Below are positions 7,044-25,249 of a stretch of DNA of 64,000 bases, piece after piece. How positions within the stretch are numbered: the first letter of the stretch is position 1; every line of letters starts with the position of its first letter. The position numbers and the translations under genes were made by a program. The notes under the pieces are model-generated. The model did no database searches and had not been told where the DNA came from. It saw only the letters and a program-made list of their open reading frames with translations. The stretch comes from Actinobacteria bacterium OK074 (lineage in GTDB: Bacteria; Actinomycetota; Actinomycetes; Streptomycetales; Streptomycetaceae): positions 30,228-94,227 of the forward strand of contig LJCV01000033.1 in NCBI GenBank assembly GCA_001298575.1, given 5' to 3'.

Positions 7044-7054
7044 GGAGCACGCTC

Positions 7055-8242: not shown

Positions 8243-8411
8243 TCAGAACACCGCACGGGGATCCGGTCCCGAACGGGCGAGCGAGCGTCCGGTCCCGGCT
8301 CCCCGACCGGGCGTGTTGATCATCACATTCGGCATGAACCGCCGCCGGAAGGTTAGGCGCCCAGCCGCGAGAGCGCCCGCCACACGGCGCTGACCAGGAG
8401 GAACGTAGAAC

Positions 8412-9878
8412 ATGCCCGAACTTTTCATCGGCGGAGCATGGCGGTCCGCGCTCGACGGGCGCACCCGCGAGATCCACTGCCCCGCCGACGGCACCCTGGT
8501 CGGCGTCGTCGACGAGGCCGGCGCCAAGGACACCGTCGAGGCAATCGCCGCCGCGCGCCGCGCCTTCGACGAGGGCCCCTGGCCCACCACTCCGGCGGCC
8601 GACCGCGGCGACCTGCTGCTGCGCGTCGCCGACCTCCTCGTCCGCGACAAGGAGGCCCTCGCCCGCGCCGAGTCCCTGAACACCGGCAAGCGGCTGGTCG
8701 AGAGCCTGTACGACATCGACGACATCGTGAACTGCTTCCGCTACTTCGCGAAGGCGGCCACCGCCGAGACCGGCCGGGTGATCGACACCGGCCAGGCCGC
8801 GGTCGACAGCCGGGTCGTGTACGAACCGGTCGGCGTCTGCGCGCTGATCACGCCGTGGAACTACCCGCTGCTCCAGACGGCGTGGAAGGTCGCCCCGGCG
8901 CTGGCCGCCGGCAACACCTTCGTCCTCAAGCCGAGCGAGCTGACCCCGCACACCGCGATCCACCTGCTGCGACTGCTGGACGAGGCCGGGCTCCCGGCGG
9001 GCGTGGCGAACCTGGTCCTGGGCGCGGGCCCGGAGGCGGGCGCCCCGCTCGCCGACCACCCGGACGTGGACCTCCTCTCCTTCACCGGGGGCCTGCTGAC
9101 CGGCCGGAGTCTGATGGCCGCCGCCGCCCCCACGGTCAAGAAGGTCGCCCTGGAGCTGGGCGGCAAGAACCCGAACATCGTCTTCGCCGACGCCGACTTC
9201 GACACGGCCGTCGACATGGCGCTGACCGCGGTCTTCCTGCACTCGGGCCAGGTCTGCTCGGCGGGCGCCCGGCTGCTGGTGGAGGACTCGCTGCACGACC
9301 GGTTCGTCGACGAGGTCGTCCGCCGCGCCTCCGCCATCCGGCTCGGCGGGCCGTTCGACGAGCGGGCGCAGACCGGTCCGCTGATCTCGGCGGCCCACCG
9401 CGAGAAGGTCGAGGCGTACGTCGCCAAGGGCCTGGCGGAGGGTGCGGTGCTGCGCTGCGGCGGCGCCCGGCCGGAGGGCGCCGCCTACGCGGAGGGGTAC
9501 TACTACCCGCCCACCGTGCTGGACGACTGCACGGGCGGAATGTCCGTGGTCCAGGACGAGTCCTTCGGCCCGGTGCTCACCGTCGAGCGCTTCACCGACG
9601 AGGCCGAGGCCGTCCGGCTGGCCAACGACACGATCTACGGCCTGGCCGGCGCCGTCTTCACCACCGACGGGGCGAAGGCGCAGCGGGTCGCGGCCCGGCT
9701 GCGACTCGGCACCGTGTGGATCAACGACTACCACCCCTACGTGCCGCAGGCCGAGTGGGGCGGTTTCAAGCAGTCCGGCTTCGGCCGGGAACTGGGGCCC
9801 TCGGGACTCGCCGAGTACCGGGAGGCCAAGCACATCTGGCGCAACACCGACCCCTCCCCCCAGGGCTGGTTCGACTGA
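8412..9878 (+). CDS. betB: Betaine-aldehyde dehydrogenase (aldehyde dehydrogenase family)
   Basis: The protein has 488 residues and is a full-length ALDH. Features include TPWNYPL in the coenzyme domain, [11 protein letters not shown] with general base Glu248, GQVCSAG with catalytic Cys282, and ESFGPVLTV in the C-terminal part. The start ATG at 8412 is preceded by AGGAGGAACGT. A 169-bp spacer separates it from the Rieske gene, so it may have its own promoter. Placed beside choline oxidase, it would oxidise betaine aldehyde to glycine betaine with NAD(P). Choline oxidase can do that step too, so this enzyme may clear leaked aldehyde or serve other amino aldehydes. Family is certain; the substrate is inferred from context. 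Confidence 0.87.
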
Positions 9879-9915
9879 CCCGCCCGCCCCGGGCACCCCG
9901 GTCATCTCGTTCCGG

Positions 9916-9994
9916 TAACTCCCGCCACCACGACCGGACTTGGCAGCCCCATTCTGCTAACTCTTGCTAACTCCCGCGTAACTCCACGTAACAG
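9916..9994 (+). promoter_or_regulatory. Phased TAACTC repeats upstream of the permease
   Basis: The word TAACTC occurs at 9958, 9968 and 9979, followed by TAACAG at 9989; an earlier TAACTC lies at 9916. The spacing of 10, 11 and 10 bp places the four clustered copies on one face of the helix. They lie about 100-130 bp before the permease ATG, so they may bind a cooperative regulator. Which protein binds is unknown. Confidence 0.45.
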
Positions 9995-10089
9995 AAAGAT
10001 CATTACCCCCACGTATAACTACCCCCCTCACGCACCAGGCACCCGCAGGAGCCGCCGCCTCCCCTCCCCGGCTCATCAGGAGTAAGCCC

Positions 10090-11655
10090 ATGTCGACAAC
10101 CGAGAAACCATCCGCCCCACAGCACGAGGACGACGCCGAACTCGCCGAGTTCGGATACAAGCCCGAACTCAAGCGCAGCCTCGGCAACTTCCACACCTTC
10201 GCCGCCGGCATCAGCTACATCTCCATCCTCACCGGCACCTTCCAGCTGTTCTACTTCGGCTACGGCAGCGGCGGCCCCGCCTACTGGTGGTCGTGGCCGA
10301 TGGTGTTCGTCGGCCAGTTCATGGTCGCCCTCTGCTTCGCCGAGCTGGCCGCGCGCTACCCGGTCGCGGGCTCGGTCTACAACTGGTCCAAGAAAGTGGG
10401 CAATCCGCATCTGGGCTGGCTCGCGGGCTGGATGATGCTGATCGCGTCGATCGTGTCCATCGCGGCGGTGGCCCTCGCCTACCAGCTGACGCTGCCTCAG
10501 ATCTCGTCGTTCTTCCAGTTCGTGGGCGACGGCACCGGCAAGTACGACGTGGCGACCAACGCGGTGATCCTGGCCGCCGTACTGATCCTCTTCACGACGC
10601 TCGTGAACGCCTTCGGCGTCAAGCTGATGGCCACCATCAACACGGCGGGCGTGTTCATCGAGCTGATCGCCACGGTCGTGCTGATCATCCTGTTCGCCGT
10701 GCACATCACGCGCGGCCCGCAGGTCGTCACGGAGACGAACGGTACGGGCGCCGGGCACACGACGGGCTATCTGGGCGCGTTCATGGTGGCGTCGCTGGCG
10801 TCGGCGTACGTCATGTACGGCTTCGACACGGCCGCCTCGCTCGGTGAGGAGTCGGTGAACCCCTCGCGCAACGCGCCGCGCGCCATCATCCGCGCGATCG
10901 TCGCCTCCTTCGTGCTGGGCGGTCTGGTGCTGCTGCTCGGCCTGATGAGCGTCTCCAGCCTCAAGGGCGACAAGCTGTCCACGGACGGCCTCCAGTACAT
11001 CGTGCTCGACGTGCTCGGCTCGACGGCCGGCAAGGCGATGCTGTGGTGCGTGCTGATCGCGGTCACCGTCTGCGCGCTGGCCGTGCACACGGCGGCGATC
11101 CGGCTGGCGTTCGCCATGGCCCGCGACAACAACCTGCCCGCGTCCTCGCTGCTGGCGAAGGTCAGCCCGCGCTTCCAGACGCCGGTGCTCCCGGCCGTGA
11201 TCATCGGCATCCTGGCGCTGGCCATCCTGGTGGTCAACATCCGCCAGCCGCAGATCTTCACCGTGGTCACCAGTATCGGCATCGTGATGATCTACCTCGC
11301 CTACCTCGGTGTCACCGTGCCGATGCTGGTGGCCCGGGTGCGCGGCAAGTGGCAGCCCGCGGGCGACGGCAAGTTCTCGCTCGGCAAGTGGGGGCTGATC
11401 GTCAACGTCGTGGCCGTGGTGTGGGGCGCGGGCATGACCCTCAACCTGCTGTGGCCGCGCGACTCCGTCTACAACGCGACCGCGCCGTTCCACTGGTACC
11501 TCCAGTGGGGCGCGGTGCTCTTCGTCGGCATCATCGCCGGCGGCGGGTTCGCCTACTACTGGTTCATCCAGCGGCACAAGACGGGCGTCCTGGAGTCGCA
11601 CCGCCTCGAAGAGACCGCCCCGCCCGCGTCGCTGGCCGCCCCCGCCACCGACTGA
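10090..11655 (+). CDS. APC-superfamily permease, putative choline/betaine or amino-acid importer
   Basis: This 521-residue integral membrane protein has about 12 hydrophobic segments and the APC features ELAARYPVAGSVYNW (helix 2-3 region) and a TAASLGEES-type segment (helix 6). A polar N-terminus precedes KRSLGNFHTFAAGISYISILTG, the usual first-helix signature. The ATG at 10090 lies behind CAGGAGTAAGCCC. Relatives carry amino acids, GABA, ethanolamine or choline. Lying 49 bp upstream of choline oxidase, it is likely the uptake system for the pathway's substrate. The substrate cannot be read from sequence. Confidence 0.82.
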   Translation: MSTTEKPSAPQHEDDAELAEFGYKPELKRSLGNFHTFAAGISYISILTGTFQLFYFGYGSGGPAYWWSWPMVFVGQFMVALCFAELAARYPVAGSVYNWSKKVGNPHLGWLAGWMMLIASIVSIAAVALAYQLTLPQISSFFQFVGDGTGKYDVATNAVILAAVLILFTTLVNAFGVKLMATINTAGVFIELIATVVLIILFAVHITRGPQVVTETNGTGAGHTTGYLGAFMVASLASAYVMYGFDTAASLGEESVNPSRNAPRAIIRAIVASFVLGGLVLLLGLMSVSSLKGDKLSTDGLQYIVLDVLGSTAGKAMLWCVLIAVTVCALAVHTAAIRLAFAMARDNNLPASSLLAKVSPRFQTPVLPAVIIGILALAILVVNIRQPQIFTVVTSIGIVMIYLAYLGVTVPMLVARVRGKWQPAGDGKFSLGKWGLIVNVVAVVWGAGMTLNLLWPRDSVYNATAPFHWYLQWGAVLFVGIIAGGGFAYYWFIQRHKTGVLESHRLEETAPPASLAAPATD

Positions 11656-11704
11656 ATCCCGCCCGATCCCTGCTGGATTCCCGCTACAAGGAGGTCAACT
11701 CCCC

Positions 11705-13255
11705 ATGAGCATCGATGAGTTCGACTATGTCGTGGTCGGCGGCGGCACCGCGGGCAACGTGGTCGCCGCCCGGCTGTCCGAAGATCCCTCCGTCACCGTC
11801 TGCCTCCTTGAAGCGGGCCCCAGCGACGTCGGCGACGACGACGTCATGAAGCTGGAACGCTGGATGGGCCTGCTGGAGTCCGGCTACGACTGGGACTACC
11901 CGGTCGAGCCGCAGCCCACCGGCAACAGCTTCATGCGGCACGCCCGTGCCCGTGTCCTCGGCGGCTGTTCCTCGCACAACTCCTGTATCGCCTTCTGGGC
12001 CCCCGCCGAGGACCTCGACGACTGGGCGGCGAACGGCTGTACGGGCTGGAGCGCGGCCGACCTGTTCCCGCTCTACCAGCGGCTGGAGAACAACGACGGG
12101 CCCGGCGACCACCACGGCCGCACCGGGCCGGTCAAGTTGCGCACGCTGAAGGGTGAAGACCCCTGTGGCACCGCCCTGTTGGAGGCGTGCGCGCAGGCGG
12201 GCATCCCGACGGTCGGGTTCAACACCGGCACCACGGTGGTCCGGGGCGCCAACTGGTTCCAGATCAACTCCGACGAGAACAACATCCGCCAGTCCTCGTC
12301 GGTGGCCTACCTGCACCCGATCATCGGCAAGCGGCCCAACCTGGAGATCCGCACCGGGGTCCGGGCCAAGAAGCTGGTCCTGGAGGGGCGCAAGTGTGTC
12401 GGCGCCGACTACCTCGACCCGGACCTGATCCACACCCGCACGGTCCGCGCCCGCCGCGAGGTGGTCGTCTCCTGCGGTTCGATCGACACCCCGAAGCTGT
12501 TGATGCTCTCCGGCATCGGCCCGGCGGCCCATCTGCGCGAGGTCGGCGTGGACGTGGTCGTGGACGCGGCGGGCGTCGGCGAGAACCTCCAGGACCACCC
12601 CGAGGGCGTCATCATGTGGGAGGCCAAGCAGCCGATGACCACCACGTCCAGCCAGTGGTGGGAGGCGGGCATCTTCTACGACACCGAACCGGGCCTGGAC
12701 CGGCCCGACTTGATGTTCCACTACGGTTCGGTGCCGTTCGACATGAACACCGCGCGCTGGGGCTACCCGACGTCGGAGAACGCGTTCTGCCTCACGCCGA
12801 ACGTGACCAAGTCGAAGTCGCGCGGCACCGTGCGGCTGCGCACCCGCGACTACCGGGACAAGCCGATGGTCGACCCCCGGTACTTCTCGCACGAGCACGA
12901 CGTGCGGGTGATGACGGAGGGCCTGAAGCTGGCCCGCCGCATCGCCGCGCAGCCCGCGCTGAGCGGCTGGGCGGGCGCGGAGCTGGCCCCCGGGCCCGAC
13001 GTGCGGAGCGACGAGGAACTGCTCGACTACATCCACAAGACCCACAACACCGTCTACCACCCGTCCTGCACGGTGAAGATGGGCGCGGACGACGACGCCT
13101 CGGCGCCCTTGGACGCACGGCTGCGGGTCAAGGGGATCGAGGGGCTGCGGGTGGCCGACGGCTCCGTGATGCCGGATCTGATCGCCGTGAATCCGTGCAT
13201 CACGACGATGATGATCGGCGAGAAGTGTGCGGATCTTTTGAAGGCGGATTCGTAG
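11705..13255 (+). CDS. codA: Choline oxidase (GMC flavoprotein)
   Basis: The protein has 516 residues and resembles Arthrobacter globiformis choline oxidase throughout. The FAD-binding VVGGGTAG lies at 9-17. GGCSSHNSC carries His91, matching the covalently flavinylated His99 of the Arthrobacter enzyme. Glu300 (DHPEG), His339 (MFHYGS), His452 (VYHPSC) and Asn496 (AVNPCIT) match the substrate-binding and catalytic residues Glu312, His351, His466 and Asn510. The enzyme oxidises choline to betaine aldehyde and on to glycine betaine, using oxygen and giving hydrogen peroxide. A GMC oxidase of this type distinguishes the route from the membrane-bound BetA dehydrogenase. The ATG at 11705 follows AAGGAGGTCAA, 49 bp after the permease, so the two form an operon. 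Confidence 0.93.
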   Translation: MSIDEFDYVVVGGGTAGNVVAARLSEDPSVTVCLLEAGPSDVGDDDVMKLERWMGLLESGYDWDYPVEPQPTGNSFMRHARARVLGGCSSHNSCIAFWAPAEDLDDWAANGCTGWSAADLFPLYQRLENNDGPGDHHGRTGPVKLRTLKGEDPCGTALLEACAQAGIPTVGFNTGTTVVRGANWFQINSDENNIRQSSSVAYLHPIIGKRPNLEIRTGVRAKKLVLEGRKCVGADYLDPDLIHTRTVRARREVVVSCGSIDTPKLLMLSGIGPAAHLREVGVDVVVDAAGVGENLQDHPEGVIMWEAKQPMTTTSSQWWEAGIFYDTEPGLDRPDLMFHYGSVPFDMNTARWGYPTSENAFCLTPNVTKSKSRGTVRLRTRDYRDKPMVDPRYFSHEHDVRVMTEGLKLARRIAAQPALSGWAGAELAPGPDVRSDEELLDYIHKTHNTVYHPSCTVKMGADDDASAPLDARLRVKGIEGLRVADGSVMPDLIAVNPCITTMMIGEKCADLLKADS

Positions 13256-13315: not shown

Positions 13316-16300
13316 TCAGGACACGCTGGGTACCGCCGGGCGTTTGTACATCCGTGTCGCCGTGATCTCCGTGTGTGCCACCTCTCCGGCCGGGATCTCC
13401 TTCGGGAGGCCCGGCCGGAGGTGTTCCTCGACGCTGATGTACTTCAGGCCCGCCCGGAGGTCGGCGTCGTTGCGCAGACGGATCACCAGCGGGAACTCCG
13501 CCAGCGCGGTCGTGTCGAACAGGCCCGTGGTGTAGAGGAGTTGGACGCCGAGCGCGTCCGACACCGCCCGCTGGAGCTCCAGCAGGTACGTGGCGTTGGC
13601 GCGGCCGATCGGGTTGTCGAGGAACAGCGTGCCCGCGTGGCGGTGCTTGTCGCTGCGGCCCCGGTCGTTGGAGCGCAGGGCCGCCATCGTGCAGTACAGG
13701 GCGATCGCCGCGGTGAGCAGCTGCCCACCGGAGAACACGTCGCCCATCTGCCCGACCGGCACCCGCTCGGCGCGCAGCACCGCGTCGGGCTTGAGGATCT
13801 CGACGGCGACGCCCTTGGGCTCCAGCGCCGCGCCGACTCCCCGCAGCAGCAGGGACATTCCGTCGCGCCGCAGGTCGGAGTTCTTCTTCACGGCCGCCCG
13901 GGTCGCGTCGTCGATCACCTCGCCGAGCCGCTCGGTGAGGGTGGCCTGGTCGGGCTCCTCGAAGCGGATGCGCAGGAACTCCTGCCCCGACCACTCCCCG
14001 AGCCCCTCCGGCAGCCGCGACAGCCGCTGGGCCGAGCGCAGGGTCGCAAGCGACGACTCGACGAGCCCGCGCAGCCGGTCCACGATCGAGTCCCGGTTCC
14101 GCTCCAGCTGCGCCAACTCGTCGGTGAGCACCCGCAGTCGGGGCGCGAACGCGTCCGCCCACTTCTGCGCGTGCTCGGGCAGCGCGGCCGCGGGCAGCTC
14201 CCGGATCTGCTGCCGCGCGGGCGTCCGCACCTGCTCGTACCGGGTGGAGTTGGCATGCCGTACGAGGATGTCGCCGGCCTCGCGCACCCCGCCCTCGGCA
14301 GCCGACAGGTCGGCGGCGCAGCCGCGCAGCGAGCGGCGGGCCTCGGCGGCGGCCCGGCGGGCCTCCTCCAGCGTGCCGGAGTAGGGCTCGGGCTCCTCCT
14401 GCTCCTCGTCCGTGGTGTGTTCACGCAGCAGGTCGCGCAGCAGTGCCGCGGTCTCGTCGAAGCCGCCGGCCCCGTCCTCGGCGGCCCGGTGCGCGTCGAG
14501 GAGTTCGGCGTGGGCCTCCCGAGCCCCGCTCAACTCGTCGGTGTGGGCGCCGAGTTCGGCGGTGGCGGTGCGCAGCAGGCCCTGGGCGTGCTCGGCGTCG
14601 CGGGGCAGCAGTTCCTCGGGCAGTTCGGTGTGGGCCTCGCCGTCCGCGGGCGCGTGCCGTTCGGCCTCGCCGCGCAGCCGCCCGAGCTGCTCGCTCGCGG
14701 TGGACATGCGGGTCTCCAGCAGCTGCACCAGCTCCTCCGCGCGCGCGGCGGCGGCCTGCCGGGACGGTCCGTCGGAACCGTCCGGCGACTGGAGCAACTG
14801 CTCGGCGCGGGTGCGCACCTTGTTGCTGAGCCGCTCCAACTCCGCGAGCGCGGCGGACTGTTCGCTCTCGGCCCGGGCCTGCTCGGCCCGCAGGTCGGCG
14901 CCGACGCCGACCTTCTCGTACAGCTGGGAGGCGGCCCGGTACGCCTCGCGCAGCGCGGGCAGCGACGCATCCGCGACGTCCGCGTCGGCCGCGGGTACGT
15001 CGTCGGGGGCGCCCGCGATCTCGGCGCGTTCGGCGCGCAGGGCGCGGGCGGTGCGGCGGGCGTCGTCGGCGCCGCGCTGGGCGGCGCGGCGGTCCTCGTC
15101 GGCGGCGCGGGCGCGTTCCAGGCAGGACTGGGCGCGGGCCTCCGACTCGACGGCGTCGTCGGCGAGTTCGCGCAGTTTGACCTGCCAGCCGGCGCGTTCG
15201 CGCAGCCGGTAGGCGAGGCCGGCGAGCGCGTCGGCGGCGCGCCGGGCCTTCTGGGCGGCCTCCTGGCGTTCGTCGCGCACCTGGGCGGCCTCGGCCGCGG
15301 TCTCCTCGGCCTCGGCGCGCGCGGTGCGGGCCTCGGCGAGTTCGGCCTCGCTCTCCTCGGCGAACTCCCGTGCCTCGCGGGCGGTTTCGGCCAGTTCGAC
15401 AAGGCGTCCGGCCGGGCAGCCGGTGCGCCAGGAGGCGAGCCGGGCGGTCAGTTCGCGGTCCTTGCCGAGGCGGGCGGCGAGCGCGCGGATCTCCTCGTCG
15501 CGCGCGGTGGCCCGGGCGCGCAGCGTCTGGCGTTCCTCGTCGGCGGCGTGCTCGTCGTGCATGGCCGGGTTCGGCGGTACGAGGAAGACGCCGGTGTCGC
15601 TGTCGTCGAGGGCCGGGGTGGGCGCGAGCAGGGCGGCGGCGGTGCCCACCGCGACGGCGGACCGCGGCAGCAGCGCGGCGTCGCCGAGCGCCTCGCGCGC
15701 GCGGGTGTGCGAGTCCGGGTCGGTGATGATCACGCCGTCGACGAGTTCGGGCCGGGCGGCGAGCACGCGCGCGTGGTCGGCGGGGTCGACGGCCTGGGCG
15801 AGGTAGCGCCAGCCGGGCAGGGCGGGGATGCCGTGCTCGCCGAGGAACTCCACGGTCGCCAGCACGTCGGGCCCCGGCGGCAGCAGCCCGCCGTCGCCGA
15901 GGGCACCGAGGATGCGGGAGTCGTCGGCGGCGGCCGTGCGCAGCTCGAACAGCTGGCGCTCGGCGGAGCCGACCGCGTCGTCGAGGAGTTCGCGCAACTC
16001 GTCGGCGAACCGGTCGAGTTCCTCGGGCGTGAGGGCGCCCTCGGCGGCTTCGTCGTCCGCGTGCTCGGGCTCGTGCCGGGGCTGAGGCACCTTGCCGCGT
16101 ACGTCGGTGCCGGACAGGCTCAGCAGCTCCGCGAGCCGTTCCTCGGCGGCCAGCGCCTGTGCGGTGCGGCGTTCGCCGTCGTACGCGCGCGTGGCCGCGG
16201 TCGCGGCGTCGGCCGCGCGGGCGGCGGTCAGTTCGGCGCGGCTCTCGGCGGACGCGGTCTCGCGCGCGTGTTCGGCGGCCCGGTGGGACGCCTCGCGCGC

Positions 16301-17953
16301 GGTGTCCCAGGCGGCGACGGTGCTCTTCTCGGCGTCACTGGCGGCGAGCGCGGCCCTGGCGGGGTCGGCGTCGGGCGCGCTGTCGTCGAGCCAGCCCGCG
16401 CGGACGGCCTCGGCGGTCTCCTGCTCGACCTCGGCGAGCCGCTGCTTGAGGTGCCCGACCTCGCTGCGGGCGCGCTGCGCCTCGGTGGCGGCGGCGGTCG
16501 AGTCCCGGTGCGCGGCCTCGCCCGCCTCCTGGAGCGCGACGGACCGCTCCTCCCCCTCGTTGGCGAGGGTCTCGGCGCTCTCCGCGGCGACGTGCAGGGC
16601 CCGTACGAGGTCGACGGCGGCCTTGGCGCGGGCGGCGAGCGCGGGGGCCGCGTCCCGTTCGGCCTCCAGGATCGCGGCGGCCACGCGCGCGGAGCGGTCG
16701 GTGGCGGCGCGGTGGCGCAGGACGGCCTCGGCGGCCTGCCAGGCGGTGAACAGCTGCCGGGCGTCGGCCAGTTCGCGCTTCTGCGCGGCGGCGGTCTTCT
16801 CGGCGCCCGCGAGCGCCAACGAGGCGTGCCGGTAGGCGAGTTCGGCCGCGATCAGGGCACTGCGCCGCCGGGCGCCCTCGGCGTGCGTGACCGCGTACGC
16901 GGCGGCGGTGACCCGCTGGGCGAGGTCGGCGGCCCGGACCCGCTCGCGCACGCCCCGCGCGGACAGCCGCCGGGCGAGGGCCCGGGTGCGGCGCTCGGCC
17001 CCGGCGTGGATGTCACGCGCGCGGGAGCGCCCCTGGGCGGCCTCGACGATCCGCCCGAGCAGGTCGACGGACCCGGCCGTGAAGTCCCGTTCGGCCATCA
17101 GTTCGGCGCGGCGCCCCAGCTTGTTGCCGAACCCGCCGACGAGGTCGGCGAGGCCGTCGGTGTCCCGCGTGTCGGTGACGGCCCGCAGCAGCAGATCGGT
17201 GAAGTCGGAGTCCTTCTTGACGGCGAAGAGCCCGGCGGCCTCACCCTCGTCGGCGTTCATCTCCCTCTGATAGCGGAAGAGTTCGGGGTCCAGTCCGAGA
17301 TCCGTCAGGTGCTCGTTCCACCGGTCGTGGATCTCCTCCCAGTGCACGTCGAGGTGCGGATACGCCTTCCCGGCCTCGGTGATGGCGTCCCGGAACCCCT
17401 TCATGGTCCGCCGCCGCCCCTGCGCCCCCGAGGCCCCCTCGACGGGCACCCGTACGGCGGTGGACTCGGCGACCGGAAGGTTGTCCAGCGCGAGCCCCGG
17501 GCCGGGCCGGAAGGAGTACCAGGCTTCGGCGAACTTCCGCGGGTCGTTGGAGACCTGCCGCCCCCGCCACTCGCTGACCTTACCCACGACCACGCATTCG
17601 CCGGTGAGCGTGTGCTGCCACTCCAGGGCCACGTGCCCGCAGTCCTCGGCGAGCAGGAACTTGCGCAGCACGCCGGAGCTGGCGCCGCCCAGGGTGTTGC
17701 GGTGACCGGGCAGCATCACGGAGAAGATCAGCTTCAGGAGTACGGACTTGCCGCCGCCGTTCTCCAGGAAGAGCACGCCCGCGGGCGCGGGCCGGCGCGG
17801 CGGGCCGACGGGCTCCTCCTCGAAGAACTCCGCCTGGGTGGGCGCGGGGTCGGGCACGGGCTCGCCCACACCCCGCAGGTCGAGCACGGTGTCGGCATAG
17901 CGCGCACCGGCCGGCCCGATGGAGTAGAGGCGGACCCGGGACAGCTCGTACAT
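13316..17953 (-). CDS. SMC/MukB-like ATPase of a condensin-like three-gene system
   Basis: The protein has 1545 residues. The N-terminal head has the P-loop LENGGGKSVLLKL (Lys69, Ser70). About 1000 residues rich in Ala, Glu and Arg follow, with heptad-like patterns (long coiled coils) and an interruption near 620-800 that may be a hinge. The C-terminal head has the ABC signature FSGGQ (SGGQ at about 1408-1411) and a Walker-B-like TLFLDNP (about 1443-1448). Here Asn follows the Asp, not the Glu of classical SMC proteins. Head-coil-coil-head layout is that of SMC/MukB/MksB/JetC proteins. Upstream on the same strand are MukE- and kleisin-sized partners. A loop-extrusion role in chromosome organisation or plasmid defence is inferred; no nuclease subunit is present. 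Confidence 0.8.
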   Translation of the reverse strand: MYELSRVRLYSIGPAGARYADTVLDLRGVGEPVPDPAPTQAEFFEEEPVGPPRRPAPAGVLFLENGGGKSVLLKLIFSVMLPGHRNTLGGASSGVLRKFLLAEDCGHVALEWQHTLTGECVVVGKVSEWRGRQVSNDPRKFAEAWYSFRPGPGLALDNLPVAESTAVRVPVEGASGAQGRRRTMKGFRDAITEAGKAYPHLDVHWEEIHDRWNEHLTDLGLDPELFRYQREMNADEGEAAGLFAVKKDSDFTDLLLRAVTDTRDTDGLADLVGGFGNKLGRRAELMAERDFTAGSVDLLGRIVEAAQGRSRARDIHAGAERRTRALARRLSARGVRERVRAADLAQRVTAAAYAVTHAEGARRRSALIAAELAYRHASLALAGAEKTAAAQKRELADARQLFTAWQAAEAVLRHRAATDRSARVAAAILEAERDAAPALAARAKAAVDLVRALHVAAESAETLANEGEERSVALQEAGEAAHRDSTAAATEAQRARSEVGHLKQRLAEVEQETAEAVRAGWLDDSAPDADPARAALAASDAEKSTVAAWDTAREASHRAAEHARETASAESRAELTAARAADAATAATRAYDGERRTAQALAAEERLAELLSLSGTDVRGKVPQPRHEPEHADDEAAEGALTPEELDRFADELRELLDDAVGSAERQLFELRTAAADDSRILGALGDGGLLPPGPDVLATVEFLGEHGIPALPGWRYLAQAVDPADHARVLAARPELVDGVIITDPDSHTRAREALGDAALLPRSAVAVGTAAALLAPTPALDDSDTGVFLVPPNPAMHDEHAADEERQTLRARATARDEEIRALAARLGKDRELTARLASWRTGCPAGRLVELAETAREAREFAEESEAELAEARTARAEAEETAAEAAQVRDERQEAAQKARRAADALAGLAYRLRERAGWQVKLRELADDAVESEARAQSCLERARAADEDRRAAQRGADDARRTARALRAERAEIAGAPDDVPAADADVADASLPALREAYRAASQLYEKVGVGADLRAEQARAESEQSAALAELERLSNKVRTRAEQLLQSPDGSDGPSRQAAAARAEELVQLLETRMSTASEQLGRLRGEAERHAPADGEAHTELPEELLPRDAEHAQGLLRTATAELGAHTDELSGAREAHAELLDAHRAAEDGAGGFDETAALLRDLLREHTTDEEQEEPEPYSGTLEEARRAAAEARRSLRGCAADLSAAEGGVREAGDILVRHANSTRYEQVRTPARQQIRELPAAALPEHAQKWADAFAPRLRVLTDELAQLERNRDSIVDRLRGLVESSLATLRSAQRLSRLPEGLGEWSGQEFLRIRFEEPDQATLTERLGEVIDDATRAAVKKNSDLRRDGMSLLLRGVGAALEPKGVAVEILKPDAVLRAERVPVGQMGDVFSGGQLLTAAIALYCTMAALRSNDRGRSDKHRHAGTLFLDNPIGRANATYLLELQRAVSDALGVQLLYTTGLFDTTALAEFPLVIRLRNDADLRAGLKYISVEEHLRPGLPKEIPAGEVAHTEITATRMYKRPAVPSVS

Positions 17954-18037
17954 GGGCGGACTCTCGTCGTAAGTCTGTAAGTCTGGGGAAACGTGCGGTG
18001 GTTCGGGGGCTACGGGGCTACGGGGGTCGCAGGGGCA

Positions 18038-18916
18038 TCAGGAGTGGAACGGCAGCCCGGCGTCGGCGACCAGCTCCAGATCGTCGATGTCCTCGCCGGG
18101 CAGCAGGGACGCCGTGCCGTCGGTCACGGGCACCACGCCCAGTTCGAGCAGCTCGGCCATGGCGGCGCTGCCGGCCATGTCCCGCACCTGGAGCTGGTAG
18201 CGGGCCGTGGTGCGGTAGGTACCGCCCCCGTCGTCCCCCGTCCGCTGCAAGAACCCCGAATCGGTCAGAAAGGCAACGGCCTTGCCGATGATCCCGGTGG
18301 TCGAACCGGCCAGCCGGCGCGCGTCCTTGGTGGCACCGGTGGCGGTGCGTCTGGCCCAGATCCGCCAGGCGGCCTCCAGCCCGGGCGCGTCGCTGGCCGG
18401 GTCGGTGTTCTGCCCCAACTCCTCGGCCCGCTCCTCCAGCCGCCGGCACGCCTGCCGGACGAACGCGTCGACGCCGTTGACGCTGACGCGCCCGATGTAC
18501 CCGTCGTCGGCGAGGTCCTCCGGCCGGGGAAACGCGAGCGCGGCGACGGCGAGATGGGCGAGCCCGTGCAGGAACCGGTCCCCGGAGTCGGCGGCGGCCC
18601 GGCGCGCGTAGTCCCCCATCCGCACGGCGAACACGGAGTCCTCGGCGGCGGTCACCGCCATCCCGGCACGCGGGGACACCTCCAGCACGATCAGCCCGAG
18701 CCCGGCGGCAACGGCATCGGCGAGCCGGGCGAAGGGCGGATCCTCCCGGTACCGCCGCAACAACTCGGCGTACTCCTGGTCACGGGCGGGCTGCAACTTG
18801 GGCTGAAGCCCGAACGCGACGAGCCGGGCGGCGTCGGCGGCGTCGCCAGGAGTGACGACGGCGGTGGCGGGCGCGGGAGCGGCCTCCGGTTCGCTCCGTT
18901 CGAGGGCCTCGGTCAC
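18038..18916 (-). CDS. MukE/MksE (KITE)-like accessory subunit, condensin-like system
   Basis: The protein has 292 residues from a GTG at 18916. An Ala/Pro-rich N-terminal tail (1-30) is followed by a soluble mixed alpha/beta protein, without signal peptide or membrane segment. A region near 185-240 (GIIGKAVAFLTDSGFLQRTGDDGGGTYRTTARYQLQVRD) reads as a winged helix, the building block of KITE subunits. It lies 84 bp upstream of the SMC-like gene and downstream of the kleisin-like gene, the MukF-MukE-MukB order. I do not recognise a named family by motif; the assignment rests on size, winged-helix look and position. Confidence 0.55.
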   Translation of the reverse strand: MTEALERSEPEAAPAPATAVVTPGDAADAARLVAFGLQPKLQPARDQEYAELLRRYREDPPFARLADAVAAGLGLIVLEVSPRAGMAVTAAEDSVFAVRMGDYARRAAADSGDRFLHGLAHLAVAALAFPRPEDLADDGYIGRVSVNGVDAFVRQACRRLEERAEELGQNTDPASDAPGLEAAWRIWARRTATGATKDARRLAGSTTGIIGKAVAFLTDSGFLQRTGDDGGGTYRTTARYQLQVRDMAGSAAMAELLELGVVPVTDGTASLLPGEDIDDLELVADAGLPFHS

Positions 18917-18959
18917 GGTTGGGGCTCCTTGCTCTGGTCGACCTTGAAAACGGGACGGG

Positions 18960-19060
18960 GAACAGCCGCCCCTATGGGGGCGCGGGGCTGCGTCTGATAT
19001 GCGGCTGCCGCCGCGTGGGCGCGATCAGCCACAACGGGCCCGCGGTCGGCAAACAACAGG
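18960..19060. repeat. Streptomyces-type dispersed intergenic repeat with hairpins
   Basis: This segment resembles a GC-rich intergenic element that I recall as common in Streptomyces genomes. It contains the hairpin CGCCCC-TATG-GGGCG, the string GGGGCGCGGGGCTGCGTCTG, and the downstream string GCGTGGGCGCGATCAGCCAC. It fills most of the 151-bp gap between the kleisin-like and MukE-like genes and could attenuate transcription between them. Recognition is from memory, not a search. Confidence 0.5.
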
Positions 19061-19067
19061 CACCCCC

Positions 19068-20594
19068 TCACGCCGCCTCCGTCCGCCCCGCAGCCATCCC
19101 CACCGCATCCAGCAGAGCGACCCCCACGATCAAATCCGCCCCACCGAACTCCGGATCGTCCAGCTCGGTCCCGTCGTCCACGGCGAACAACAGCTTCTCC
19201 TCACCCTGCCGATAAGCCGTCCCCACGGCCGGACTGGCCGCGTGCACGGCCAGCAGGGCAACGAGATAGGGAAGTTCGGGATCGAGCCGCCGAGCCTCGG
19301 CAAGCAGCCCCGACAACCGCCGAGGGGCGTCCGCGGGCAGGTCCAGCAACTCCATGGCGGCGGCCAACTGCTCCTCGCTGAACCGGCTGTCGTCGGGCGT
19401 GGCGATCAGGTCCGGCTCGGGCATCTCCGCGCCCAGGTGCTCCCGCTCCACGGGAGGCGTCAACAGGAGGTCGACGAGATCCCCCATCCGTACGGACGCG
19501 CGCGTGCGGAACCCGACCCCGCGGTCGAAGAACGCGCTGGTGACCCGGACGGCGTCCGCGACCGGCAGCGGCAGTACCGGCGCCACGAGATGCCCGTACA
19601 GGTCGATCCCGGAGGTCGTCATCGGCGTGGCGAACGCCTGCCGGTCCTGCTCCGCGCGGAACAACGGCCCCGCTTCGAGCAGCCGGGACTGCAACTGTGT
19701 ATGCCGTCGGATGCAGTCCTTGACGATGTCGACGAGTTCCGCGGCGCGTCGCTTCTGCTCGGCGTCCTCGGACTCGTCGCGCGCGCGGCGGATGTTGGTG
19801 AGGATCGCGTTCTCGTGGCGGTACCGGTCGGCGACGTGGTCCAGGGCCTCGGCGATCATGTCGGGGACCATGCTGAGCCAGTCCACGGCACGGACGTTGC
19901 GCCGCGTCGCGTCCAGGGTGCGGCGCAGGGTCTCGGAGTACTGCACCGTCCGGTACCGGGCCTGCTCCGCGGCGAGCTGGGCGTCGGCGAGGCGGCCGCG
20001 GCTGATCAGGACCTCAAGCTTGACCTCGGCGGCGATCTGCGCGCTGGTGACGTCCGTGTCGAGGGCGCCGACGAGGACGTTGACCGCCTCGTCCGTCGTG
20101 CGGAGGTAGACGCTGCCGCCGTAGCCGGGGACCTCCTCGATGAGCTTGAAGTCGTAGTCGCGGCGGACGTAGGTGCCGTCCGTGGCGAACGTGCCGTACA
20201 CGGCGCGGAAGCCGCGGTCGACGCTGCCGACGTTGATCAGGTTCTCCAGCACCCAGCGGGCCACCCGCTCGTGCTCGGCGACCGGGCGCTGCGGGGCCTG
20301 GGCGGCGATGCGCGGGATGAGACGGGCCACTATCTGGTCGTGGTCGGCGCCCGTGTCGAAGTCCATGTTCAGGGTGACCAGGTCGATGGCGGCGAGGGCG
20401 ACCTCGGCCATGCCGTAGACCGAGTACTCGCCGGCGAGGTTCGCCTTGCGGGCGTCCAGGTCGTGCAGCGGTGCGGTGCAGGCGAGCGCGCGCAGCCGCC
20501 GCGCGAGCCCTTCGTCGGCGGCCGGCGCGGGCGCGGGCCGCGGCCCCGCGCTGAGCTGGGGCGGAACGCTGTCCGTCGATGCAGGCGAAGTCAC
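19068..20594 (-). CDS. Kleisin-like (MukF/MksF/JetA-type) subunit, condensin-like system
   Basis: The protein has 508 residues from a GTG at 20594; a TTG at 20624 is an alternative start, and neither has a strong ribosome site. After a Pro/Ser-rich tail it has an all-alpha N-terminal region (LARRLRALACTAPLHDLDARKANLAGEY) with a winged-helix-like stretch. A central helical part follows (residues about 190-330, with long charged helices), then a C-terminal winged-helix-like domain. This layout fits MukF/MksF kleisins, which join the SMC heads. It is the first gene of the three-gene minus-strand set. No motif proves the family. A structure prediction together with the SMC heads would decide. Confidence 0.55.
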   Translation of the reverse strand: MTSPASTDSVPPQLSAGPRPAPAPAADEGLARRLRALACTAPLHDLDARKANLAGEYSVYGMAEVALAAIDLVTLNMDFDTGADHDQIVARLIPRIAAQAPQRPVAEHERVARWVLENLINVGSVDRGFRAVYGTFATDGTYVRRDYDFKLIEEVPGYGGSVYLRTTDEAVNVLVGALDTDVTSAQIAAEVKLEVLISRGRLADAQLAAEQARYRTVQYSETLRRTLDATRRNVRAVDWLSMVPDMIAEALDHVADRYRHENAILTNIRRARDESEDAEQKRRAAELVDIVKDCIRRHTQLQSRLLEAGPLFRAEQDRQAFATPMTTSGIDLYGHLVAPVLPLPVADAVRVTSAFFDRGVGFRTRASVRMGDLVDLLLTPPVEREHLGAEMPEPDLIATPDDSRFSEEQLAAAMELLDLPADAPRRLSGLLAEARRLDPELPYLVALLAVHAASPAVGTAYRQGEEKLLFAVDDGTELDDPEFGGADLIVGVALLDAVGMAAGRTEAA

Positions 20595-20659: not shown

Positions 20660-21355
20660 TCAGCCGACCCCCTGCACCCGCCGCCCGTACACCTCGACCA
20701 GCCCGTGCAGCGAGTCGTCGAGGTAGACCGCGAGGAGTTTTTCCGCCTCGTCGCGGTCACCCGTCTGGAGGGTCTGGAGGATCTGGCGGTTGCGGGCGAG
20801 GTACGGCTCGTGCAGCCGCTTCGGATCGTCCACGACGTGGAAGGCGAGCCGGAGTTCGGCGAAGACGCTGCGCATGAGTTCGTCGGTGCGGACGCTGCCG
20901 GCGAGGGCGACCAGTTCCCGGTGGAAGTGGATGTTGGCCGTGGCCACCCCTTTCCAGTCACCTTCGCGCGCCGCCCGCTGCCCGTTCGCGACCGCTTCGG
21001 CGAGCCCGTCGACGGCGTACGGCGGCTGCCCGAGGCCGCGGACGACGGCGCACTCGACGAGGCTCCGGGTGCGGTAGATGTCCTCGACGTCCTCGACGGT
21101 GAGCACCCGGACGAAGACGCCCCGGTTCAGCTCGTGGACGAGCAGCCGTTCGTGCGTGAGCAGCCGGAACGCCTCGCGGAGGGTGTTGCGGGAGACGCCG
21201 AGCGCGCCGCCGATGCTGTCCTCGGACAGCCGGGTCCCGGGCGGGAAGTACCCCTCCGCGATGCGGCTTCTGAGGATGTCCGAAACCCGCTCGGCGGTGC
21301 TGGTGCGGCCCAACAGGGCGCGGTCGTCGGCCAGTCCCGTCAGATCCTCTGCCAT
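20660..21355 (-). CDS. GntR-family regulator, FCD subfamily
   Basis: The protein has 231 residues. A winged helix lies at about 20-85 ([54 protein letters not shown]). An all-helical FCD ligand domain follows at about 95-225, with the Asp/His positions expected of a metal-binding FCD pocket (for example [13 protein letters not shown]). It diverges from the MFS-DUF1445-pxpABC operon, and a palindrome matching the FCD operator pattern lies in the 231-bp spacer. It is therefore the likely repressor of that operon and of itself, responding to an organic acid such as 5-oxoproline or glutamate. The effector is inferred. Confidence 0.9.
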
Positions 21356-21586: not shown

Positions 21587-22906
21587 ATGAGTACGACCCC
21601 TCCATCCCGGGCCCTGTCCGCCGAAGCCCCCGCCGGCGCGGGCGAACCCGTCGCCGACGAGGGCGCGTTCGCCTTCCTGCGCGCACTCGGTCCGCGGGGC
21701 CGGCGCGCCTTCGCGGGCGCGTTCGGCGGCTACGCCCTGGACTCGTACGACTACTTCACGCTGCCGCTGACGATGGTCGCGCTGGCCGCGTACTTCGATC
21801 TGGACAGCGGTCAGACGGGCCTGTTCACGACCGTCACCCTGGTGGTCTCGGCGATCGGCGGCGCCGTCGCGGGCGTGGTCGCCGACCGCTTCGGGCGCGT
21901 CAAGGCCCTGCTGATCACGGTGATGACGTACGCCATGTTCACGGTCGCCTGCGGTTTCGCGCCCAACTACGAGACCCTGCTGGTCTTCCGCGCCCTCCAG
22001 GGCCTCGGCTTCGGCGGCGAGTGGGCCGTCGGCGCGGTCCTGGTCGCCGAGTACGCGAGCGCCAGGCACCGCGGCCGTACGCTCGGCGCGATCCAGAGTT
22101 CCTGGGCCGTCGGCTGGGGACTCGCGGTGGCCGTGTCCACGGTCGTGTTCACCCACGTGGGCGACGACCTGGCCTGGCGCGTGGTGTTCTGGACCGGCGC
22201 CCTGCCCGCGCTGCTCGTGCTGTGGGTGCGCGGCCGGGTGCACGACGCCCCGCGCGCGGACGTCGACCGCGCGCAGGGCGACTGGAAGGCGTCCTTCGCG
22301 ACGATCTTCCGGCCGGGCACGGCCCAGGCACCGGGTCTGCTGCGGATCACGCTGTTCGCGAGCCTGCTGTCCACCGGTGTCCAGGGCGGCTACTACACGC
22401 TGGCCACCTGGGTGCCGACGTACCTGAAGACCGAGCGCGGCCTGTCGGTCGTCGGCACCGGCTGGTACCTGACGTTCCTCATCTCCGGCGCCTTCATCGG
22501 CTACCTGACCGGCGGCTATCTCACCGACAAACTCGGCCGCAAACGCAACATCCTGCTCTTCGCCGTCCTGTCCGCGCTCTGCATCCTGGCGTACGCGAAC
22601 ATTCCGCACGGGGCCAACACCGCCCTCCTGGTGCTCGGTTTCCCGCTCGGGTTCTGCATGTCGGCGATCTTCAGCGGCTTCGGTTCGTTCCTGAGCGAGC
22701 TGTACCCGACAGCCGTGCGTGGCACCGGACAGGGCTTCACGTACAACACCGGACGCGCGGTCGGCGCCGTCTTCCCCACCACGGTCGGCTTCCTGGCGGA
22801 CAGCTGGGGCGTGGGCGGGGCGCTGGTCTTCGGCGCGATCGGCTACGGCCTGGCCGCGCTCGCGCTGCTCGGCCTGCCGGAGACCCGTGGAAAGGAACTC
22901 CAGTGA
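21587..22906 (+). CDS. MFS transporter, organic-acid (proton symporter) type
   Basis: The protein has 439 residues from the ATG at 21587; GAGGTG just upstream supports it over the GTG at 21581. About 12 membrane segments are visible. The loop 2-3 motif is [13 protein letters not shown], with a matching [13 protein letters not shown] in the second half. [18 protein letters not shown] resembles the metabolite:H+ symporter family (sialate/shikimate/dicarboxylate type). It is the first gene of a coupled operon ending in 5-oxoprolinase, so pyroglutamate, D-glutamate or a related acid is the likely cargo. The cargo is inferred. Confidence 0.88.
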
Positions 22907-23742
22907 ACCGTGTCACCGAGGACCGTCCCGTGACCGAACTCGACGAGCACGCGCACGCGTGGACCCCCGACGACGCGCGGGCCCGCTTCCGCTCGGGCGT
23001 GTCGGGTCCCACCGCCGGGGTCGCCGCCGGGTACACCCAGGCCAACCTGATCTCGCTGCCCGCCGACTGGGCCTACGACATGCTGCTGTTCGCCCAGCGC
23101 AACCCGCGGTCCTGCCCGGTCCTGGAGGTCACCGACGCGGGCTCCTGGAACACGCCCCAGACCGCTCCCGGCGCGGATCTGCGCACCGATCTGCCGCGCT
23201 ACCGGGTGTGGGAGCACGGCGAGCTGGTGGACGAGCCCACGGACGTCGTGGACCGCTGGCGCGACGACCTGGTGTCGTTCCTCATCGGGTGCAGCTTCAC
23301 CTTCGAGTGGGCGCTGACCGGGGCGGGCGTGCCGATGCGCCACATCGAGCAGGGCCGTAACGTCCCGATGTACGTCACCAGCCGCCCGTGCCGGCCCGCG
23401 GGACGGCTGCACGGTCCCCTGGTGGTCTCGATGCGCCCGGTGCCGCCCCGGTTCCTGGACACCGCGATCACCGAGACCAGCCTCCACCCGGCGGTGCACG
23501 GCGGCCCGGTCCATCTGGGCCCGCCGTCGGCCCTGGGCATCGCCGACCTCGACCGCCCCGACTTCGGCGACCCGGTGGCCGCCGAACCGGACGACATCCC
23601 GGTGTTCTGGGCCTGCGGCGTGACCCCGCAGGCCGCGGTGATGGCCTCGCGCCCGCCGTTCGCCATCACCCACGCACCGGGCCGGATGTTCATCACGGAC
23701 GCGCGCGACGAGCAGTACCGCGTCCTCCCCCGCGGTGCCTGA
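22903..23742 (+). CDS. DUF1445 putative hydro-lyase (D-glutamate cyclase-like)
   Basis: The protein has 279 residues from a GTG overlapping the MFS stop (GTGA). It carries the family segments [48 protein letters not shown] and [32 protein letters not shown]. These are the conserved blocks of the DUF1445 family, to which the mitochondrial D-glutamate cyclase DGLUCY belongs. The cyclase forms 5-oxo-D-proline from D-glutamate. Co-expression with PxpABC, which opens 5-oxoproline, makes a linked function plausible. Bacterial members are often called putative hydro-lyases without a proven reaction. Family is certain; activity is not. Confidence 0.85.
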
Positions 23743-23786
23743 CGGCCAGAACCACGCCACAGGACACCGCCCGACCAGGAGAGAGC

Positions 23787-24539
23787 ATGATCGATCTGAA
23801 CGCCGACCTCGGCGAGGGCTTCGGCCGCTGGCAGCTCACCGACGACGAGCAGCTGCTGACCGTCGTCACCAGCGCCAACGTGGCCTGCGGGTTCCACGCC
23901 GGGGACGCGGCCACCATGCGGCGGGTGTGCGAGCTGGCGGCCACGCGCGGTGTACGGATCGGCGCCCAGGTCTCCTACCGCGACCTGGCCGGTTTCGGGC
24001 GGCGCGCCATGGACGTGCCGCCCGCCGAACTGGCCGCGGAGGTCGCCTACCAGATCGGCGCCCTGGAGGTCTTCGCGCGCGCGGCGGGCACGCGCGTGTC
24101 GTACGTGAAGCCCCACGGCGCGCTCTACAACCGGATCGTGCACGACCAGCAGCAGGCCGAGGCGGTCGTCGAGGGCGTGCTGCTCGCCGACGCCGCCCTG
24201 CCGGTGCTCGGGCTGCCCGGCTCGCGCTTCCTCGAGGTGGCCCGCAAGGCCGGACTCCCGGCCGTCACCGAGGCGTTCGCGGACCGCGCGTACACCGCGG
24301 AGGGCACGCTGGTGCCGCGCGGCCGGGACGGCGCCGTCGTCACCGATCCGGACACGGTCGTGGCACGGGCGGTGGGCCTGGCCCGCTCCGGCGAGGTCGA
24401 GGCGCACACGGGCGGCCGTATCGCCGTCCGCGCGCGTTCTTTGTGCCTGCACGGCGACACGCCCGGCGCGGTGGGTCTGGCCCGCCGGGTGCGGTCCGCC
24501 CTGGAGTCGTCCGGCGTCCGTGTGGCGGCGTTCGTATGA
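23787..24539 (+). CDS. pxpA: 5-oxoprolinase subunit PxpA (LamB/YcsF family)
   Basis: The protein has 250 residues and starts MIDLNADLGEGFGRW, the standard PxpA opening. SANVACGFHAGDA and SYVKPHGALYN are the conserved metal/substrate blocks, and SLCLHGDTPGA lies near the end. PxpA works with PxpB and PxpC to convert 5-oxoproline to glutamate with ATP. The ATG at 23787 follows AGGAGAGAGC. The stop overlaps the start of pxpB by 4 bp (ATGA), so the three subunits are coupled. Confidence 0.93.
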   Translation: MIDLNADLGEGFGRWQLTDDEQLLTVVTSANVACGFHAGDAATMRRVCELAATRGVRIGAQVSYRDLAGFGRRAMDVPPAELAAEVAYQIGALEVFARAAGTRVSYVKPHGALYNRIVHDQQQAEAVVEGVLLADAALPVLGLPGSRFLEVARKAGLPAVTEAFADRAYTAEGTLVPRGRDGAVVTDPDTVVARAVGLARSGEVEAHTGGRIAVRARSLCLHGDTPGAVGLARRVRSALESSGVRVAAFV

Positions 24540-25249
24540 GGGCGCTTCCGGTCGGCGACCGGGCCCTGCTCGTCGAACTGCCCTCCGGCGCCGAGGCCGA
24601 GGCCCTGCACGCCGAGCTGCTGCGCCGCAGGGCCGCCGGGGACCTGATCGTCGGCGAGATCGTCCCTGCGGCCCGTACGGTCCTCCTGGACGGCCTGGCG
24701 GACCCCTCCCGGTGGGCGGCCCGGCTCGCCTCCTGGGACATCCCGCCGGCCGCCCCGCGCACCGAGGCCGCCGTCGAGATCCCCGTCCGGTACGACGGCC
24801 CCGACCTGCCGGACGTGGCCGCGCACTGGGGCGTACCCGTCGACGAGGTGGCCCGCATCCACGCCGCCGCCGAGTTCCGGGTGGCCTTCTGCGGGTTCGC
24901 GCCCGGCTTCGGCTACCTCACGGGTCTGCCCGCCCGCTACGACGTGCCGCGCCGGGCCACCCCGCGCACCGGTGTGCCCGCCGGTTCGGTGGCGCTCGCG
25001 GGGCCGTACACCGGGGTGTATCCGCGCTCGTCCCCGGGCGGCTGGCAGTTGATCGGCACGACGGACGCGGTCCTGTGGGACCACACGCGGGTGCCTGCGG
25101 CGCTGTTGGCGCCGGGCGCCCAGGTGCGTTTTGTTCCGCTCGGAGCGGAAGCCGAATTCGTTCCGCTCCGAGCGGAAAGCGAAATTCCTCTCGGAGCGGA
25201 AAAAACCACCGGCCCGGAAGCCCCCTCCGCACCGGCAGGTACCACGTGA
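24536..25249 (+). CDS. pxpB: 5-oxoprolinase subunit PxpB (allophanate hydrolase subunit 1 family)
   Basis: The protein has 237 residues. The conserved FCGFAPGFGYLTGLP, RRATPRTGVPAGSVALAG and YPRSSPGGWQLIG blocks identify the KipI/PxpB family. The body ends near residue 200. The remaining tail, about 38 residues, is encoded partly by three 17-bp palindromes (25134-25201), giving the in-frame peptide repeat (V)PL(G/R)AEAE. The tail is absent from typical members and looks like a repeat insertion. Start and stop both overlap neighbours by 4 bp. Confidence 0.92.
   Translation: MRALPVGDRALLVELPSGAEAEALHAELLRRRAAGDLIVGEIVPAARTVLLDGLADPSRWAARLASWDIPPAAPRTEAAVEIPVRYDGPDLPDVAAHWGVPVDEVARIHAAAEFRVAFCGFAPGFGYLTGLPARYDVPRRATPRTGVPAGSVALAGPYTGVYPRSSPGGWQLIGTTDAVLWDHTRVPAALLAPGAQVRFVPLGAEAEFVPLRAESEIPLGAEKTTGPEAPSAPAGTT
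25134..25201. repeat. Three near-identical 17-bp palindromes inside the pxpB 3-prime end
   Basis: The copies are TTCCGCTCGGAGCGGAA at 25134-25150, TTCCGCTCCGAGCGGAA at 25161-25177 and TTCCTCTCGGAGCGGAA at 25185-25201. Copy-to-copy steps are 27 and 24 bp, multiples of three, so the reading frame stays open. The linkers are A-rich (GAAATT, AAAAAA), unusual for this genome. Confidence 0.75.

Follow-up and report, generated by a model that had tools for sequence, protein, structure and literature searches.

The trio jetA-jetB-jetC, encoded on a 64,000-nucleotide stretch of contig LJCV01000033.1 from Actinobacteria bacterium OK074 (hereafter the window), is a Wadjet type III system without the nuclease JetD that probably persists in the Streptomycetaceae as a housekeeping machine of the chromosome. 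Taken together, the data suggest a plasmid-killing weapon that has been turned into a machine for handling the chromosome. A sequence-only reading of the window had described a 1545-residue SMC-like ATPase together with a MukE-sized and a kleisin-sized gene in the order MukF-E-B; all three minus-strand genes are confirmed, and by position they run head-to-tail as kleisin, KITE subunit and SMC (Table 1). Its proposal of an extra complex that organises chromosomes remains plausible, although it had missed both the Wadjet III family and the near-universality of the trio in the Streptomycetaceae.

By the profiles of JetC and JetA, the trio is clearly of Wadjet type III. In the profile search that the sequence-only reading had proposed, JetC matched PADLOC PDLC00588 (JetC3) at 1380.3 bits (E value of 0), with all seven PADLOC families that it matched being JetC3, and JetA matched PDLC00567 (JetA3) at 614.7 bits (E = 3.7e-185). 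JetB gave no direct match in the PADLOC, Pfam or NCBIfam scans; it aligns over its full length with the JetB proteins of JetD-bearing cassettes (38–52% identity), and among 15 aligned JetB rows four match PADLOC JetB3 family PDLC00571 (best E 6.6e-4) and two PDLC00573 (best E 3.9e-6), in both cases weakly. Both Pfam and NCBIfam contain MukB models. At E values up to 1, the Pfam scan of the trio returned nothing, including no SMC match for JetC, and the NCBIfam scan returned no JetC match (hence no TIGR02680) and two chance-level matches for JetA. The expectation that JetC is not of the TIGR02680 type was therefore correct, but a clear family does exist in the JetC and JetA of Wadjet type III. 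Profile searches of the PDB with all three subunits found no meaningful match, the AlphaFold2 models of JetA and JetB were too poor to use (mean predicted local distance difference test scores of 45.7 and 43.5), and hhalign detected no similarity between JetA or JetB and the JetA1 or JetB1 of the type I system in the same genome. The putative kleisin and KITE roles of JetA and JetB are assigned by family names and gene order.

The ATPase motifs of JetC lie where the sequence-only reading had placed them. Across 13 aligned JetC rows, from copies with and without JetD, the Walker A residues N65, G66, G67, G68 and K69 are invariant, as are SGGQ and DNP. In a larger set LDNP is present in 26 of 26 rows, with or without JetD, and the signature deviates in two distant JetD-bearing rows (SGGE in locus L129 and SNGQ in L161, the latter also deviating in Walker A); the motifs are kept across 16 core rows from at least 15 genera. 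The asparagine that follows the Walker B aspartate had been considered unusual, yet all 10 divergent JetC3 rows aligned share it, and judged from these alignments it is a type III trait that is not special to the window protein (in a weak profile alignment, the corresponding residues of the host type I JetC are 'ideafgr'). An ATPase inactivated by this asparagine was considered and rejected because the divergent JetC3 rows all carry the same residue.

The trio is near-universal in the family. Of the 184 Streptomycetaceae genomes sampled, 182 hold a JetA ortholog, at 80–94% identity in all 104 Streptomyces genomes sampled and at least 73% identical in 78 of 80 genomes from 16 other genera; one copy at a contig edge (genome G149) and three broken ones (G129, G180 and G187) are counted as positive. 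In a further, partly overlapping Streptomyces sample the core JetB was found in 108 of 111 genomes, the three misses falling in two assemblies that are incomplete (82% and 78%) and a third that is split into 1140 contigs. The 80 named loci analysed below, the best 80 of 530 confirmed JetC relatives, are all from Streptomyces and have JetC identities of 80–90% over the best segment; on this ground the window is assigned to the genus Streptomyces and the family Streptomycetaceae. Outside the family, 13 of 15 genomes had no JetA match and two had distant ones (32% and 45%). Among 72,556 plasmid records none holds a JetC of at least 60% identity, and nine hold a distant one. In addition, a 30.9-kb contig filed as 'viral' in IMG/VR (L163) starts with a JetA 85% identical to that of the window, and is possibly host chromosome mistaken for virus.

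Within Streptomyces, the median pairwise ratios of nonsynonymous to synonymous substitution rates (dN/dS) against the window are 0.105 for JetA (78 loci), 0.121 for JetB (79) and 0.171 for JetC (80), with 0.221 for the neighbouring GntR gene (71 loci); on this measure the trio is under purifying selection. A functionless remnant of a dead defence system could account for the loss of JetD and for the broken frames in G129, G180 and G187, but we regard it as very improbable given these ratios and the motifs kept in the core rows.

As the sequence-only reading had noted, no nuclease gene adjoins the window trio on either side: the gene 3' of jetC is a convergent GMC oxidoreductase-like gene (read by eye, without a family search), and the one on the 5' side encodes a GntR/FCD regulator. 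The same holds for the relatives. A tblastn search with the JetD proteins of six divergent cassettes found none in the 80 Streptomyces loci, none in 16 loci from 15 non-Streptomyces genera and none in the first 34 kb of the window (the control recovered JetD in 4 of 4 cases; flanks extended up to 10 kb where the contig permits, and some were short). At least 1.5 kb of sequence 3' of jetC is available in 79 loci, and in 65 of these the first gene there lies on the opposite strand. The remaining 14 have a same-strand gene that begins 202–1302 nt from jetC: nine are genes of 951–1046 aa at 866–1302 nt that share the start MRFRGK/T..., and five are short doubtful open reading frames at 202–233 nt.

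Divergent copies behave differently, jetC being followed directly by JetD3 in 12 of 16 (L121, L122, L123, L125, L126, L129, L143, L144, L145, L161, L205 and L206); the remaining four are cut by the contig (L120 and L124), a fragment (L127) or a lone JetA (L128). This lone JetA-like gene (L128:4120-5595), in a genome of another family, has no recognisable jetB or jetC alongside. At L123:3669-16238, sbcD and sbcC, as identified by Pfam, stand immediately upstream of a JetABCD operon, placing two coiled-coil systems side by side, and the contig-cut L124 (205-7151) appears similar. A site scan of JetD-less against JetD-bearing copies, with L129 left out, found no residues that separate them; residues 326–350 of JetA are where the JetD-less copies have the least conservation lead (0.51 versus 0.45), a weak sign of a possible relaxed contact with JetD.

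These counts bear on the suggestion, made in the sequence-only reading, that the trio restricts plasmids with a nuclease encoded elsewhere. Strong JetD3 matches (PDLC00594, E below 1e-40) occur in 10 of the 111 Streptomyces genomes, and all ten also hold a second, divergent JetB beside the core one (a weak second JetB was seen in two genomes without a JetD3 match, G237 and G298). When weaker PDLC00594 matches and PF09983 are included, 19 of the 111 genomes have any JetD and 92 have none. A search of the host genome for JetD-like proteins, likewise proposed earlier, returned one JetD_C gene, located beside the host's own type I JetA1-JetB1-JetC1 (G000:C268; L130:6267-12952); a DUF2399 search of the same genome gave no match, its positive control being silent as well. 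Recruitment of JetD or another nuclease in trans is therefore disfavoured and, in our view, improbable. The single host JetD_C gene could supply such a partner, although it sits beside type I subunits; set against this are the 92 genomes without JetD by either profile (unrelated nucleases lying outside the search), compared with core JetB in 108 of 111, and the divergent JetB that accompanies every JetD3.

Nuclease-free copies are also found in a second actinobacterial family (f20). A class-wide sample of 118 genomes gave matches in 12, namely eight Streptomyces and four f20 genomes (JetA 60–63%), and with an f20 JetA as query, JetA of at least 71% identity was found in 19 of 35 genomes of that family. 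No JetD was present in the 12 f20 loci with a readable 3' flank (L167-L170, L194, L195, L198, L199, L200, L202, L204 and L207, with jetC split in L194 and called short in L170); seven more are cut by the contig (L191, L192, L193, L196, L197, L201 and L203). Two divergent second copies in f20, L205 and L206, carry JetD3. The window JetA is 48–55% identical to the nearest JetD-bearing copies of its own family and 61% identical to that of L205.

A 45-row JetA tree sets the 32 rows of the Streptomycetaceae core on one side of a branch with support of 100/99 (long branches were flagged for the non-core rows). A JetA tree with four f20 rows places both JetD-less groups together, with a support of 89/90 that is not strong, whereas FastTree on the three subunits (36 rows) joins f20 to the JetD-bearing copies instead, with support of 0.984. 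The three trees used 16, 7 and 6 of the 80 Streptomyces loci, respectively, and L120 and L124 entered both JetA trees as 'JetD-bearing' with JetD unseen at the contig end. If the root is placed, by our choice, on L129, a distant copy that carries JetD, the other JetD-bearing copies branch outside the core, so that loss of JetD is simpler than gain. We are evenly balanced on the fuller history, in which a Wadjet III immune motor shed its nuclease and was so domesticated, in one event or in two independent ones (in the Streptomycetaceae and in the second family), and became a second core condensin that helps to fold, separate or package Streptomyces chromosomes.

What is shown here is gene content and conservation; the workings of such a machine, from complex formation to ATP-driven extrusion and action on the chromosome, can be proposed by analogy with related systems. 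In the parts of the sources available here, to which this and the later citations refer, a dimeric JetABC motor is described to extrude plasmid DNA before JetD cuts it (PMC12647877), and JetABCD to cleave circular but not linear DNA (PMC10586767). Likewise, JetA in the window system would bridge JetC dimers as the kleisin that carries JetB, and the assembled JetABC would spend ATP on extruding loops from the chromosome. With no JetD to make a cut at the end of extrusion, the complex could act on the host chromosome, and plasmid cleavage is expected to be absent. JetABC would thus serve next to Smc-ScpAB as a second condensin, the role that MksBEF has in Pseudomonas.

The trio shares with Wadjet type III the A-B-C order, the JetC3 and JetA3 profiles and the motifs, including the LDNP of Walker B, and it differs from it in lacking JetD and in being a near-fixed chromosomal copy in its family instead of an accessory one. 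The type I Wadjet of the host follows the same JetABC motor idea, but has a JetD_C gene alongside. Like MksBEF of P. aeruginosa and MukBEF, the window system is a chromosomal kleisin-KITE-SMC trio without a nuclease, here known by gene content; unlike them, it appears to derive from type III, and its JetC falls outside MksB and MukB by Pfam and NCBIfam at the limits given above. Descent from defence systems by loss of JetD has also been proposed for MukBEF and MksBEF, in a review that calls the relationships unresolved (PMC10586767). Finally, the trio resembles Streptomyces Smc-ScpAB in having a coiled-coil ABC ATPase with two partners, but its JetC lacks a Pfam SMC match. Smc-ScpAB organises Streptomyces chromosomes (PMC8410768, PMC13121528); its coexistence with the trio is taken from the literature. 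The available parts of these two papers make no mention of the trio, and no description of it was found in the open-access literature that we could consult in part (most subscription papers fall outside this scope). Since a single genus holds copies of one Wadjet type both with and without the nuclease, the transition from immunity to care of the chromosome is open to direct testing; if the trio is indeed a condensin, Streptomyces chromosome biology has missed a core player.

Two other functions have to be weighed against a chromosomal housekeeping role. In the first, JetABC would retain immunity without cutting: it would recognise small circular DNA and extrude, compact or silence it, much as Smc5/6 is proposed to act on viral DNA, thereby guarding against plasmids and phages. 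The JetD of a defence family in each of the 12 divergent copies whose 3' end can be read, the patchy presence in f20 and a review that speaks of blocking viral gene expression on DNA molecules (PMC10586767) are compatible with this idea. We nevertheless consider it unlikely, as the core trio is near-universal in the Streptomycetaceae and, within Streptomyces, under purifying selection and flanked by steady 5' neighbours, in contrast to the sporadic distribution described for Wadjet (PMC10586767). Slightly less likely still is an SMC complex linked to DNA repair or replication, akin to Rad50 or Smc5/6, in place of a bulk chromosome organiser. It would draw on the same conservation data, the motor layout would suit it, and one JetD-bearing relative adjoins sbcD and sbcC, with L124 alike; against it, no recurring repair gene was recognised by eye or by Pfam among the neighbours, most of which were unscanned.

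Several observations weigh against the housekeeping role itself. The complex may be dispensable, because 2 of the 184 genomes lack it and three have broken frames: G181 has no JetA; G127, the sole sampled genome of its genus, has only a 26% copy within the JetD-bearing cassette L161; and the frames are broken in G129, G180 and G187. In G129 (locus L153), jetA, jetB and jetC each contain several frame shifts, which may reflect decay or assembly error. The presence in 19 of 35 f20 genomes is patchy, as expected of a defence system. The trees imply that JetD was lost once or twice, but they disagree, and the preference for loss over gain depends on the chosen root. With asparagine in place of the Walker B glutamate, ATP hydrolysis is not assured, though this applies equally to the JetD-bearing copies. 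GntR, the steadiest neighbour, gives no functional hint, and no assay, expression datum or phenotype was found for the complex. Nor does chromosome position help. Over 43% of Streptomyces Lamassu and Wadjet systems are reported in the outer 10% of the chromosome (PMC10482375), and in 24 single-contig Streptomyces genomes the distance of the core copy from the closer end is 10–37% of the total (rounded lengths), and 10–22% in 23 of them. Among seven places measured for divergent copies or JetD, however, four lie 13–21% from the end, like the core, and three within 5% of it (two being both copies of one genome and one a fragment). Position was dropped as an argument, since divergent copies can occupy the same zone.

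The features of the locus are collected in Table 1. A codon-usage gene caller chose exactly the jetA, jetB and jetC frames over the long antisense open reading frames. Its training set consisted of the window genes, these three among them, so the independent support for the three calls is their conservation. The antisense frames over the trio, such as 13373-17980 on the plus strand, were rejected, as codon usage favours the minus-strand genes.

Table 1. Coordinates of the jetABC locus and its motifs, numbered from the first nucleotide of the window.
Feature	Position	Strand	Length	Basis or remark
JetC-like SMC/coiled-coil ABC ATPase gene	13316..17953	-	1545 aa	PADLOC JetC3 profile, kept motifs
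Walker B of JetC, LFLDNP, residues 1443-1448	13610..13627	-		Asn at the usual Glu place
ABC signature of JetC, SGGQ, residues 1408-1411	13721..13732	-
Walker A of JetC, ENGGGKS, residues 64-70 (Lys69)	17744..17764	-
jetB-like gene (putative KITE/MukE-position subunit)	18038..18916	-	292 aa	Relation to JetB of JetD-bearing cassettes
jetA-like gene (putative kleisin/MukF-position subunit)	19068..20594	-	508 aa	PADLOC JetA3 profile
Alternative jetA-like start, upstream TTG	20624	-
GntR/FCD regulator gene	20660..21355	-		Pfam GntR and FCD; stop codon 65 nt upstream of jetA

The GntR/FCD regulator is probably a usual neighbour that is not part of the complex. It is matched in 72 of 81 sequences (the 80 loci and the window, several with short flanks), and in other genera it is displaced from jetA or missing beside it, for which reason GntR was rejected as a fixed fourth gene. 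Divergent from it, a plus-strand group at 21587-26115, in which three other genes accompany those for an MFS transporter and a D-glutamate cyclase, lies near jetABC in 59–65 of the 80 Streptomyces loci. On the 3' side of jetC, window positions 5889-13255 hold oxidase-, Rieske-, aldehyde dehydrogenase-, permease- and GMC oxidoreductase-like genes, as read by eye. Membership of the trio in this oxidase/dehydrogenase cluster was rejected because the flank varies between species: the four of these genes that were searched for lie near jetABC in 15–21 of the 81 sequences, among them the GMC-like in 15, the aldehyde dehydrogenase-like in 18 and the permease-like in 21, compared with 72–81 for GntR and JetA-C.

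In several relatives, the reading and setting of the large gene 3' of jetC point to cvnA4, which in S. coelicolor is SCO1402 (PMC4595836, PMC9739842). The accessible portions of the literature on SCO1402-SCO1407 yielded nothing on genes of the jetABC region. If the large gene is indeed cvnA4, the jetABC genes of S. coelicolor should lie near SCO1402.

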